The position numbers were made by a program, and so were the translations under genes. This document shows positions 43,096 through 46,764 of a stretch of DNA of 64,000 bases, piece by piece; position 1 is the first letter of the stretch; the number at the start of each line of letters is the position of its first letter. The notes under the pieces are model-generated. The model made no database searches and was not told the DNA's origin. It saw only the letters and a list, made by a program, of their open reading frames with translations. The DNA is from Aureitalea marina (GTDB lineage: Bacteria; Bacteroidota; Bacteroidia; Flavobacteriales; Flavobacteriaceae): NCBI RefSeq assembly GCF_002943755.1, contig NZ_MQUB01000001.1, positions 1,228,501 to 1,292,500 of the forward strand. The letters run 5' to 3'.

Positions 43096-43575
43096 TTAGA
43101 TTTCCTGGAAAATGGAGTGCATCAGACGTTTTTTGTCATTGATGCTCTCTTCAAGCGAGATCATGGTCTCCGTCCTGGTAACCCCGTCTATATCGTCTAT
43201 CATATAGATGATCTCCTTGGCGTGGCTCGTATCTCTTGCCCTGACCTTACAGAAAATATTGAATTTACCCGTGGTTACATGGGCAACAGTAATAAAGGGG
43301 ATCGCGTTGATCCGCTCCAGTACGAACTGGGTTTGGGATGTCTTTTGTAGAAATATCCCAACATAGGCGATAAAGGAATAGCCCAATTTTTTATAATCCA
43401 GCATTAAAGAGGACCCGGTAATGATCCCTGCCTCTTCCATCTTCTTCACCCTGACGTGTACTGTTCCGGCAGAAATGCCAAGTCTTTTAGCAATATCCGT
43501 AAAAGGGGTTCTGGTATTCTCGATCAACATGTCCAGAATGTGATGATCGGTCTCGTCTAATTTAAACTTGGCCAT
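43096..43575 (-). CDS. Lrp/AsnC-family transcriptional regulator
   Basis: A 159-residue leucine-responsive-type regulator. The N-terminal HTH reads LDMLIENTRTPFTDIAKRLGISAGTVHVRVKKMEEAGII (about 13-53), and a C-terminal AsnC ligand-binding domain follows (about 70-150, ITVAHVTTGKFNIFCKVRARDTSHAKEI). Such proteins form octamers and respond to amino acids. A -7-like TATTTTTG (complement of 43593-43600) lies just upstream. The proline dehydrogenase nearby may be a target; this is inference only. Confidence 0.9.
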   Translation of the reverse strand: MAKFKLDETDHHILDMLIENTRTPFTDIAKRLGISAGTVHVRVKKMEEAGIITGSSLMLDYKKLGYSFIAYVGIFLQKTSQTQFVLERINAIPFITVAHVTTGKFNIFCKVRARDTSHAKEIIYMIDDIDGVTRTETMISLEESINDKKRLMHSIFQEI

Positions 43576-43620: not shown

Positions 43621-44781
43621 CTAAGGTATTTGTAAAAAAATCATCAATTTATTGTCAGATTGACGGTGAATTGTTAACACTTTATCACCTACGAAAACGT
43701 TTTCGTGAGAATTTATCAAAATAGACTCGCCCTTCAAATCCACCTCAAAATGACCAAATAACCCACTTAACTCACCCATCTGATCGAGCTGTTTGACAAA
43801 GCGAATACGGCCATCCACCAGTTCTTCCTCTAATTGTAATGCCATATCAACAAGTCCACCACTTTTACTACCTACATTTCTAAGGATGAGATCTCGAAAA
43901 TTCTGACTATGCCTTGGAAGATCATCATAGTTGACTACTGAAGAGGGAAATGTTGATGGCAAGAGACCGAACAGCTGCATCAAAGCGAGAAAGATGAGCT
44001 CTCTGCTCCCATCCCGGTTGTAATCCCCGGGAAAGTGCCCGGCTTCAAATAGTATAGTTGGTATTCCTATGGCCTGGAAGGTATCTCCAACACAGTTAGG
44101 ATTGAAACCATCATCATAGAGCCCAATGCATCCAGGATGTAACCTATTCAGGACGCCCGCCATCTGCCCGATCTTATCCATGGCCTGCAGCCTGGCAGCT
44201 GTCCTACTCTTGTTTTGATCCGCAGCAGGGGCCAAAAACGATATGATAGAAGGGTTTCCGTCATCCATGCCGTAAATACTCCTTTGCCCGTGTAAATTCA
44301 GGCAGAGCTCAGGCTCTAACTCATCAAACCAACTCCTTAACACCTGACTTTCCGGTTGACTCAAGTCTACGGCATCCCTGTTTAGATCGACGGAATTGTA
44401 ATTCTCACGGGTATATGCCTCTGCCCCATCCGGATTGAGCACTGGAATAAGGCAAAAAGTAAACTCTGAGAGGAAATGACTAACCAGTACATCCTCATCC
44501 CGGAAGCGTTTTAGATAAGCAAGCAGATCGAAACAAGCCCGTGTTGTGGTCGATTCATTTCCGTGCATCTGGGACCAACCCAAAATAACACGCTTTCCTC
44601 TCCCGATCTTCATGCCATGGATGGAGCGACCTGACACCGAGGTTCCGAGCTGCTGGATGTCAACCCAATCCTTGTGTTTTTCGAGGAGTGGATCAAGGCT
44701 AGCAAGAGGTAAATATCGTCCAGATAAAGTGGGTTCTAAAACGCTGTGATAGCGCTGGCGGATTTGATCCTTACTGTTCAT
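43621..44781 (-). CDS. M14-family zinc carboxypeptidase
   Basis: A 386-residue cytoplasmic peptidase (no signal peptide). Zinc ligands are His73 and Glu76 (HGNE) and His164 (LNLHGQ). The substrate-binding pair is in VDLNRD (Asn134-Arg135), and the catalytic glutamate is Glu246 (LFEAGHFPGDYNRDG). The C-terminal ~100 residues form a separate beta domain. It starts divergently from the XRE regulator, and two operator-like palindromes lie within 45 bp of its start. It may hydrolyse murein peptides or other small peptides; the substrate is not clear. Confidence 0.85.
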   Translation of the reverse strand: MNSKDQIRQRYHSVLEPTLSGRYLPLASLDPLLEKHKDWVDIQQLGTSVSGRSIHGMKIGRGKRVILGWSQMHGNESTTTRACFDLLAYLKRFRDEDVLVSHFLSEFTFCLIPVLNPDGAEAYTRENYNSVDLNRDAVDLSQPESQVLRSWFDELEPELCLNLHGQRSIYGMDDGNPSIISFLAPAADQNKSRTAARLQAMDKIGQMAGVLNRLHPGCIGLYDDGFNPNCVGDTFQAIGIPTILFEAGHFPGDYNRDGSRELIFLALMQLFGLLPSTFPSSVVNYDDLPRHSQNFRDLILRNVGSKSGGLVDMALQLEEELVDGRIRFVKQLDQMGELSGLFGHFEVDLKGESILINSHENVFVGDKVLTIHRQSDNKLMIFLQIP

Positions 44782-44782
44782 C

Positions 44783-44798
44783 GTTTACAAAAGTAAAT
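44783..44798. promoter_or_regulatory. Operator-like site 1 (overlaps the M14 gene -7 box)
   Basis: GTTTACAAAAGTAAAT, an imperfect palindrome matching GTTTACAATTGTAAAC at 13 of 16 positions. It contains the complement of TACTTTTG (44788-44795), which fits TAnnTTTG on the minus strand, 6 bp before the M14 ATG. Repressor binding here would block the M14 gene. Confidence 0.65.
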
Positions 44799-44806
44799 AA
44801 GAGTAA

Positions 44807-44822
44807 GTTTACAATTGTAAAC
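44807..44822. promoter_or_regulatory. Operator-like site 2, perfect 16-bp palindrome
   Basis: GTTTACAATTGTAAAC is fully palindromic. It lies 24 bp from site 1, within the divergent promoter region. Confidence 0.75.
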
Positions 44823-44841
44823 ATTAAATTGAACTAGTTTT

Positions 44842-44857
44842 GTGTACATATGTAAAC
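44842..44857. promoter_or_regulatory. Operator-like site 3
   Basis: GTGTACATATGTAAAC, 13 of 16 positions identical to site 2 and nearly palindromic, 35 bp from site 2. Confidence 0.65.
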
Positions 44858-44999
44858 AAATTCGCATTACGTTCATTATAAAATCACCATGTCAAATATT
44901 ATTAATTATTATATAATTGTTTTTCAGTTATATAAATAACTTTATTTCAATTATAAGTTTATTTATCTAGGAGTGATTTCAGAGCATTACGCTAAAATA

Positions 45000-45015
45000 C
45001 TCTACATTTGTAAAC
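45000..45015. promoter_or_regulatory. Operator-like site 4 (overlaps the XRE gene -7 box)
   Basis: CTCTACATTTGTAAAC has a perfect right half-site TGTAAAC and a partial left half. It contains TACATTTG (45003-45010), a TAnnTTTG match 31 bp before the XRE ATG. Binding here would repress the regulator's own gene. Confidence 0.6.
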
Positions 45016-45041
45016 ACAATTTGATCGATTTATAAATTACA

Positions 45042-45440
45042 ATGGTCAACAGCCAGGATTTTGCCAAACGACTCCATATAATACTGGATTATTACCAGTT
45101 ATCCGCCACCTCTTTGGCCGATAAATTGGAGGTAAATCGCTCTACCATTTCCCACCTGCTTTCAGGTAGAAATAAACCCAGTTTGGATTTTGTGATGAAA
45201 CTCCTCTCCCACTTCCCCGAGGTAGACTTGTATTGGTTGATGAACGGGACCGGAAAATTTCCTGCTGAAAAAAATGAAGCTATCAGGTCTACCGATTCTA
45301 TTTCCATGGATATGACCCCAACAGAATCCGAAGGAAACAAGTACCATCAAAAAAAAGAAGGACTGATCTCAGACTCCCAGATCGAGCGGATCGTCATCTT
45401 TTTCAAGGACGGCAGCTTTAAAGCCTACGATAGGGATTAA
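45042..45440 (+). CDS. XRE-family helix-turn-helix regulator
   Basis: A 132-residue protein. The N-terminal XRE HTH (about 5-60) is FAKRLHIILDYYQLSATSLADKLEVNRSTISHLLSGRNKPSLDFVMKLLSHFPEVDLYWLMNG, with the recognition helix at VNRSTISHLLSGR. The tail (about 75-132) is charged and ends IERIVIFFKDGSFKAYDRD. It is the first gene of a unit with the lipoprotein that follows. The intergenic region with four matching palindromes and AT-rich DNA suggests that it binds there and regulates itself and the M14 gene. Confidence 0.86.
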   Translation: MVNSQDFAKRLHIILDYYQLSATSLADKLEVNRSTISHLLSGRNKPSLDFVMKLLSHFPEVDLYWLMNGTGKFPAEKNEAIRSTDSISMDMTPTESEGNKYHQKKEGLISDSQIERIVIFFKDGSFKAYDRD

Positions 45441-45472: not shown

Positions 45473-45883
45473 ATGAAACTCACACACGCTCTATTCGCTT
45501 CTGCTCTAATTTTTTTACTGGGCTCCTGTTACCAAACCGAGCGCAATTGTACAGACTTCAAGACCGGAACCTTCCAATTTGAGGCATTAGTGGGCACGGA
45601 AATGCTTACCACCACATTTGTGCGCAATGATAGCATCGAAATTGACTATTTCCAAGGAAAAGCAGACACCTCAGCTATTCGTTGGATCAATGATTGCGAG
45701 TACATCGTCAAGAAGAATAACCCCAGAAATATGGCCGAGGAGAAAGCCATACATATGAAAATCCTGTCCACAGACGGCCCTTTTTATACTTTCGAATACA
45801 ATGTGGTGGGACAGGACCGTAAAGAGCGTGGCACCGCCCGCAAAGTGGATGAATCCCAGTCCAATCGGCCTGTCGACCAATAA
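45473..45883 (+). CDS. Lipoprotein, unknown function
   Basis: A 136-residue lipoprotein with lipobox LLGSC (Cys19). The mature domain is beta-rich (NCTDFKTGTFQFEALVGTEMLTTTFVRNDSIEIDYFQGKADTSAIRW...). Databases have sometimes carried the label DNA topoisomerase IV for this kind of short flavobacterial lipoprotein, by recollection; nothing in the sequence supports it. It follows the XRE gene by 32 bp. Confidence 0.65.
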   Translation: MKLTHALFASALIFLLGSCYQTERNCTDFKTGTFQFEALVGTEMLTTTFVRNDSIEIDYFQGKADTSAIRWINDCEYIVKKNNPRNMAEEKAIHMKILSTDGPFYTFEYNVVGQDRKERGTARKVDESQSNRPVDQ

Positions 45884-45924: not shown

Positions 45925-46764
45925 ATGTTTGATATTTTAGCCACTCCTGATGCCTTAATGGCCTTGCTGACCCTAACTTTCCTGGAGATCGTCCTGGGTA
46001 TTGACAACATCATCTTTATTTCCCTGGCAAGCAGCAAGCTTCCCGCCAAGCAGCAAAAGAAAGCGACCAACATAGGATTGTTAATGGCCATGCTGATCCG
46101 GGTGGCCCTTTTATTTGGTATAACCTGGCTAACAGCCATGGAAGAGCCCTTTTGGTATATTGACCTATCCTGGATCACCGGAGGTATTAGCGGGCAGAGC
46201 CTGATCCTATTCGCAGGTGGACTTTTTCTGCTGTATAAGAGTACCACTGAAATTCATGAAAAGGTAGAAAACAAGGGCCATGACCAGCAGCAGGTTGAAA
46301 AAAAGCGATCGACCTCCCTTTTCCAAGCTATCGTGCAAATTACCTTGATAAACATCGTATTTTCCTTTGATTCCATCCTGACCGCTGTAGGTATGACTAA
46401 CGGGATAGGAGAATCTCCTACAGACGCTCTGGTCATTATGGTAATCGCAGTGGTGGTGTCTGTGATCATCATGATGGTCTTTGCCCATCCCGTTGGCCGA
46501 TTCGTCAACCAACATCCAACAGTACAGCTTCTGGGAATGGCTTTCTTGATCCTGATCGGATTCATGCTTATCGCTGAGTCTGCTCACCTGGCGCATTTGG
46601 TGGTCTTCGGGAACGAAGTAGGCGCCATTCCTAAGGGATATCTCTACTTTACTATTTCTTTCTCTCTGTTCATTGAATTTATCAATATGCGCTACCGCAA
46701 GAATAAGAACGGAGCTGAACCTCAGCCTCAGGCGGCGGAAATAGTGGAAAAACAGGCCGGTTAG
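45925..46764 (+). CDS. TerC-family membrane protein
   Basis: A 279-residue protein with about seven transmembrane helices. The conserved acidic helices are LTLTFLEIVLGIDNIIFISL and IVFSFDSILTAVGM. A charged loop (KVENKGHDQQQVEKKRSTSLF) links the halves. TerC proteins are linked to metal (manganese) efflux and tellurite resistance; which applies here is not decided by sequence. Confidence 0.88.
   Translation: MFDILATPDALMALLTLTFLEIVLGIDNIIFISLASSKLPAKQQKKATNIGLLMAMLIRVALLFGITWLTAMEEPFWYIDLSWITGGISGQSLILFAGGLFLLYKSTTEIHEKVENKGHDQQQVEKKRSTSLFQAIVQITLINIVFSFDSILTAVGMTNGIGESPTDALVIMVIAVVVSVIIMMVFAHPVGRFVNQHPTVQLLGMAFLILIGFMLIAESAHLAHLVVFGNEVGAIPKGYLYFTISFSLFIEFINMRYRKNKNGAEPQPQAAEIVEKQAG

Follow-up and report, generated by a model that had tools for sequence, protein, structure and literature searches.

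A probable autoregulatory switch with helically phased operators between divergent XRE regulator and M14 peptidase genes of Flavobacteriaceae

Repressors that act on several related sites at once are known from phages and plasmids. The lambda CI repressor occupies two multi-site operators, OL and OR, in which 16-17-bp sites lie with their cooperative neighbors approximately 24 bp apart, and the two are joined by a 2.3-kb loop. In ImmR/ImmA-type pairs, the gene for an XRE repressor adjoins a gene for a metallopeptidase. RcoLS20, encoded by the Bacillus plasmid pLS20, is an Xre protein that controls divergent promoters through two multi-site operators; it forms a tetramer, and control is lost upon insertion of 5 bp (PMC4207663). 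Here, we describe a locus of Flavobacteriaceae that meets the features of this last class, namely two multi-site operators at divergent promoters and a helical-phase constraint on the spacing between the two clusters, in this instance without binding data. We consider it likely that the locus is a chromosomal, family-wide autoregulatory switch, in which an XRE protein is inferred to repress both an M14 peptidase (M14[-Lrp]) operon and its own gene, most likely with a loop between the clusters. Our literature search, which was limited to open-access papers, found no report of an XRE/M14 module or of such an operator in flavobacteria.

Operators and promoters at the M14 and XRE genes

The original prediction placed four related 16-bp operator sites, at 44783, 44807, 44842 and 45000, between divergent M14 peptidase and XRE genes of Aureitalea marina, in what we refer to as the window (the whole 64-kb stretch of DNA analyzed). 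These coordinates proved exact, the site at 44807 is a perfect palindrome, and the flanking gene pair is corroborated by the Peptidase_M14 and HTH_3 domains found in its products. A fifth, weaker site at 45035-45050 had been missed. The features of the locus are as follows, in window coordinates and with no strand assigned to the operators:

43096-43575, minus strand: Lrp/AsnC-family regulator gene, downstream of M14
43621-44781, minus strand: M14 metallocarboxypeptidase gene (Peptidase_M14, 70.3 bits vs. a cut-off of 21.6 bits)
44783-44798: operator A, GTTTACAAAAGTAAAT, 2 mismatches to GTTTACANNTGTAAAC; M14 start 2 bp away
44788-44795, minus strand: predicted M14 -7 element, TACTTTTG, consensus TAnnTTTG, inside operator A
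44807-44822: operator B, GTTTACAATTGTAAAC, 0 mismatches, perfect palindrome; A-B spacing 24 bp, conserved
44842-44857: operator C, GTGTACATATGTAAAC, 1 mismatch; B-C spacing 35 bp, conserved at 34-36 bp
45000-45015: operator E, CTCTACATTTGTAAAC, 2 mismatches; -42 from the XRE start
45003-45010, plus strand: predicted XRE -7 element, TACATTTG, inside operator E
45035-45050: operator F, AATTACAATGGTCAAC, 4 mismatches; overlaps the XRE start codon (45042); E-F spacing 35 bp
45042-45440, plus strand: XRE-family regulator gene, 132 aa (HTH_3, 33.6 bits vs. a cut-off of 23 bits)

The XRE protein consists of a helix-turn-helix (HTH) region (residues 1-74), a variable linker predicted to be disordered and a conserved C-terminal beta-hairpin, IERIVIFFKDGSFKAY (pattern IERIVIFYxDGxFKxY). 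Its AF2 model contains a confident five-helix HTH followed by a C-terminus made up of the disordered linker and two short strands, and its structural matches include 434 Cro, SinR, C proteins such as C.AhdI and C.BclI, and HigA. We infer that the hairpin is a plausible oligomerization element. The predicted fold of the M14 protein, which has no evident signal peptide, matches carboxypeptidases D, M and A. Residues H73, E76, H164 and E246 are invariant in 23 sequences; from general knowledge of M14 enzymes, we take the first three to be the zinc ligands and E246 to be the catalytic residue. Its role may be in peptide or muropeptide turnover, which is no more than a guess, and the Lrp/AsnC gene is probably in the same operon. 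The XRE gene is followed by genes for a small lipoprotein with an SCYQTERNC motif (45473-45883) and a TerC-family protein (45925-46764).

The prediction had proposed searching the genome and its relatives for the motif. At up to two mismatches, GTTTACANNTGTAAAC occurs at 14 places in the whole 3.07-Mb genome, compared with 12 for a reversed-pattern control, and four of these 14 fall inside a single 233-bp stretch (44783-45015). Motif density is therefore at background elsewhere and at this locus exceeds it by about a thousand-fold or more, with the caveat of circularity that the sites were defined by the same motif that is then analyzed. Besides the four sites, the window holds only one further match at up to three mismatches. 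A genome-wide regulon was rejected, given that matches away from the locus are at control level. The excess at up to one mismatch across family genomes (72 vs. 47 in the control) is roughly explained by 29 sites at XRE loci, and a regulon in relatives was rejected as well. Recurring sites near ATATACACGTGTAAAT, seen upstream in some loci, apparently lie within the M14 gene and seem to correspond to the coding of its conserved YTRxN motif; they were not taken as operators.

In Flavobacterium psychrophilum, the -7 box of the principal sigma factor, sigma-A, has been mapped as TAnnTTTG (PMC9723704). Operator A, whose logo in relatives is gtTTACAAAnGTAAAC, carries a minus-strand box of this type (TACnTTTG) in nearly all of 76 aligned loci, and operator E retains the TACATTTG core in nearly all of 68 loci, together with its position at -42 (±1-2). 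Operator B has no TAnnTTTG box and provides an internal control. Both promoters are thus predicted to lie within operators, which, when occupied, should exclude the polymerase. The predicted leader of the M14 transcript (44781-44798) spans only about 2 bases in the window, so this transcript may be leaderless in the window's genome; in relatives, the leader is about 14 bases.

Operator F is weak in the window's genome and much stronger in most relatives. A site at -7 from the XRE start is present in 96 of 109 loci, with the start codon inside its palindrome (TTTACAATGGTAAAC). Codon 3 of XRE is AAC in 106 of the 109 loci, whereas elsewhere in these genes AAC accounts for just 29.5% of asparagine codons; at codon 2, GTA or ATA is found in 103 loci. 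This bias points to selection on the DNA site rather than on the protein alone, such that a regulatory site dictates codon choice, and apparently residues 2 and 3, of a conserved protein. In two loci from another family of the order (L144 and L145), XRE begins with MDT instead of MVN or MIN and the start-codon operator is absent, an observation that fits the operator dictating these residues elsewhere.

Family-wide conservation and helical phasing

We detected the XRE protein in 381 of 395 Flavobacteriaceae genomes (170 of 177 genera), usually as a single copy. The search of relatives found the palindromes at the same gene pair, in that each of 109 XRE loci carries at least two sites within three mismatches (mean 4.5, vs. 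0.05 in shuffled sequence). This sample comprised 29 loci, including the window's own, and 80 records that included Flavobacterium, Lutibacter, Christiangramia, Maribacter, Winogradskyella, Psychroflexus and Zobellia; a second sample, of 59 loci drawn almost entirely from other genera, averaged 4.9 sites. Wherever at least about 2 kb of sequence upstream of XRE was available (78 loci), it contains a divergent M14 gene, and the Lrp/AsnC gene is found behind M14 in 77 of 78 with enough flank. What had been described as an unnamed local regulatory module extends to nearly the entire family, and no name for it emerged from our searches. More distant families of the order have divergent XRE relatives, mostly with recognizable sites; some of these relatives keep only one or two, and three XRE relatives have none. 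An origin in phages or defense systems was rejected, as PHROGs and PADLOC gave generic HTH matches only and the synteny is family-wide.

The layout of the two clusters is shared by relatives, with A, B and C on the M14 side (24 and 35 bp) and E (approximately -42) and F (-7) on the XRE side; some genera have an extra site, D, at approximately -77 from the XRE start. Two main peaks, at 24 and 35 bp, and lesser ones at 22 and 43-45 bp mark the distribution of spacings between neighboring sites (n = 446), 93% of which fall within 22-25, 33-36 or 43-46 bp. The distance from site B to the XRE start likewise takes values near 244, 255, 266 and 276 bp, with empty intervals between them, so that the pattern repeats every 10.5-10.75 bp (R 0.78). 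The 59 loci fetched after the pattern had been seen reproduced both its period and its phase (58 scored, R 0.74), with an R reached by none of 20,000 draws from a smoothed null. The window itself, at -235, is in phase, although few loci share its distance class.

Parsimony on an approximate M14+XRE tree of 83 loci yielded 42 changes of cluster distance, of which 26 were of 1-2 bp and none of 3-8 bp; of the remaining 16, 14 fell within 9-12 or 19-23 bp. On the same tree, the gap between M14 and Lrp, used as a control, changed by 3-8 bp in 13 of 38 cases (vs. 0 of 42; Fisher p = 1.7e-5), and control gaps displayed no periodicity. The observed coherence was never reached in 5000 tree simulations with control-gap steps (p < 1/5000). 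A simulation that reassigned the observed steps gave p = 0.054, as expected, since those steps are already quantized.

The distance between the M14-side and XRE-side clusters, approximately 200 bp, thus shifts by multiples of roughly 10.5 bp, which is most simply read as a need for proteins on one cluster to face those on the other, as in a short loop. As judged from comparative sequence data, the quantized spacing points to stereospecific binding by an oligomer and probably to DNA looping, with the oligomeric state and the loop both inferred. It is possible, although we think it improbable, that XRE represses both promoters locally without any loop and that the quantization stems from a nucleoid bending protein, supercoiling coupling or RNA polymerase contacts. 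The overlap of A and E with the -7 boxes means that local occlusion would suffice for repression, and the spacer is AT-rich. However, the 24- and 35-bp spacings share the period of the cluster distance, which is most simply attributed to a single protein-protein contact rule. The simplest reading, then, is that neighboring sites obey the same angular rule as the contact between clusters; a bending protein or polymerase-polymerase contact behind the phasing is not excluded. If the loop is real, the helical phase that evolution has kept between the clusters at over 140 loci would constitute a rare comparative-genomic record of one.

Natural losses of XRE and the identity of the binder

Natural losses bear on which protein binds the palindromes. 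Fifteen family genomes, 14 of them from the 395-genome survey, have no recognizable XRE, and an M14 relative is present in all but one of them. Twelve M14-Lrp loci without XRE (L165, L166, L168 and L178-L186) contain no site within two mismatches, and a single three-mismatch site in one genome. In seven of the twelve, a TAnnTTTG box is still present roughly 30 bp ahead of the M14 start. In nine, M14 is directly faced by the lipoprotein and TerC genes, whose usual place is after XRE, indicating that XRE dropped out of an otherwise intact neighborhood. Because the XRE-negative genomes are confined to few genera, they represent only a small number of independent losses. Conversely, the sites persist beside XRE in four genomes in which M14 could not be detected (G043, G046, G056 and G058; the XRE start in G056 is unresolved). 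Along with the promoter boxes inside A and E, loss of the palindromes together with XRE and their retention beside XRE without M14 make it very likely that XRE is the binder and the repressor of both divergent promoters. The original prediction that XRE binds the sites is upheld to this extent, by comparative evidence and in the absence of a binding assay or expression data.

Two other regulators warrant consideration as binders. Operators of the BlaI/CopY type have the form TACAnnTGTA, which the palindrome core resembles, and the genome contains a BlaI/CopY-like repressor gene beside an M56/BlaR1-like gene (L002:1905-2282 and 22-1902, respectively; G000:C1:414310-417325). A copy of the palindrome with one mismatch, CTTTACATATGTAAAC, is located at 415810 in this locus; it sits within the M56 coding sequence, and we took this site, the only strong one elsewhere in the genome, to be there by chance rather than as an operator. 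That a repressor of this type binds the palindromes, with the XRE gene as a bystander, is nonetheless very doubtful. The palindromes vanish without XRE even where M14 and Lrp remain, and they stay beside XRE where M14 is missing. Moreover, the 3-kb BlaI-like locus has one TACAnnTGTA, that inside M56, and none upstream of the BlaI-like gene, and the regulator encoded at the sites is an HTH_3/XRE protein that does not meet the winged-helix criterion of the BlaI family.

The adjacent Lrp/AsnC-family protein is, in our judgment, a slightly weaker candidate still. Its synteny holds in 77 of 78 loci, and arrays of sites are often bound by Lrp-type proteins; however, the twelve XRE-less loci keep Lrp beside M14 with the palindromes gone, and loci such as L152 and L155 keep XRE sites without a visible Lrp gene in the DNA retrieved, whose flanks are incomplete. 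We can practically discount the palindromes being chance occurrences or terminator-like RNA elements, common as short AT-rich palindromes are in AT-rich intergenic DNA, because shuffled sequence yields 0.05 sites against 4.5 observed and positions and spacings are fixed across 168 loci.

The proposed switch and its relation to known systems

The switch that we favor builds on computed features of the locus: the sites, their conservation, the promoter overlap, the codon constraint, co-loss with XRE and helical quantization. An XRE dimer would bind each 16-bp palindrome (consensus GTTTACAnnTGTAAAC), at A-C by the M14 promoter and at E-F, with D in some relatives, by the XRE promoter. Bound over the -7 boxes at A and E, XRE would exclude RNA polymerase and repress the M14(-Lrp) operon and the XRE gene, and at F it may form an additional roadblock over the first bases to be transcribed. 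Dimers on adjacent sites, 24 or 35 bp apart and thus differing by one helical turn, are envisaged to touch at a fixed angle. The clusters, about 200 bp apart, would interact only if correctly phased, most likely by looping of the DNA through XRE oligomers, so that both promoters would switch together. XRE binding, repression, looping and the part of the hairpin in oligomerization are inferences here. The original prediction of a regulatory module is thereby supported; the overlap with both promoters and the helical phasing are features it had not seen.

The inducing signal is unknown and might be a peptide handled by the M14 enzyme. We speculate, with little confidence, that M14 closes the circuit on a looped XRE switch, for instance by trimming the C-terminal hairpin of XRE or by acting on a peptide that XRE senses. 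If true, this would represent a carboxypeptidase version of peptidase-controlled repression that is core to flavobacteria. Irrespective of the signal, the regulator is present, in single copy, in 96% of sampled Flavobacteriaceae genomes without a name that we could find, and its target sites can be read from sequence alone.

Several known systems share parts of this arrangement. ImmR/ImmA-type pairs also have an XRE gene beside a metallopeptidase gene, but an M14 carboxypeptidase is unlike the ImmA/IrrE (M78) anti-repressor, and there is no evidence that M14 cleaves XRE. HigA antitoxins and the C proteins of restriction-modification systems have a small HTH fold similar to that of XRE. We rejected assignment as a HigA antitoxin (24.8 bits vs. 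a cut-off of 47.7 bits), the XRE gene being flanked by M14 and lipoprotein genes; the locus contains neither a toxin nor a restriction gene. The likeness to lambda CI extends to an HTH repressor, several related operators beside two promoters and autoregulation. Unlike CI, XRE has no S24 self-cleaving domain and is a protein of 132 aa encoded at a non-phage locus with a short spacer; an S24-type repressor was ruled out by the lack of an S24 Pfam match and by a C-terminus that consists of the disordered linker and two short strands.

RcoLS20 is the nearest described mechanism that we found, and we suggest a likeness in mechanism class without claiming homology. RcoLS20 controls plasmid conjugation from overlapping promoters with a 75-bp spacer (PMC4207663), whereas the XRE/M14 locus is a chromosomal core locus with about 200 bp between clusters, -7 boxes inside two of its operators, an operator over a start codon and a peptidase as target. 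The tetramer and the loop have been demonstrated for RcoLS20 and are only inferred for XRE/M14; the dependence of the loop on phase, likewise shown for RcoLS20, has its counterpart here in helically quantized distances, for which the evidence is evolutionary only. Common to both are an Xre-family regulator, divergent promoters, two multi-site clusters and control of the regulator's own gene.
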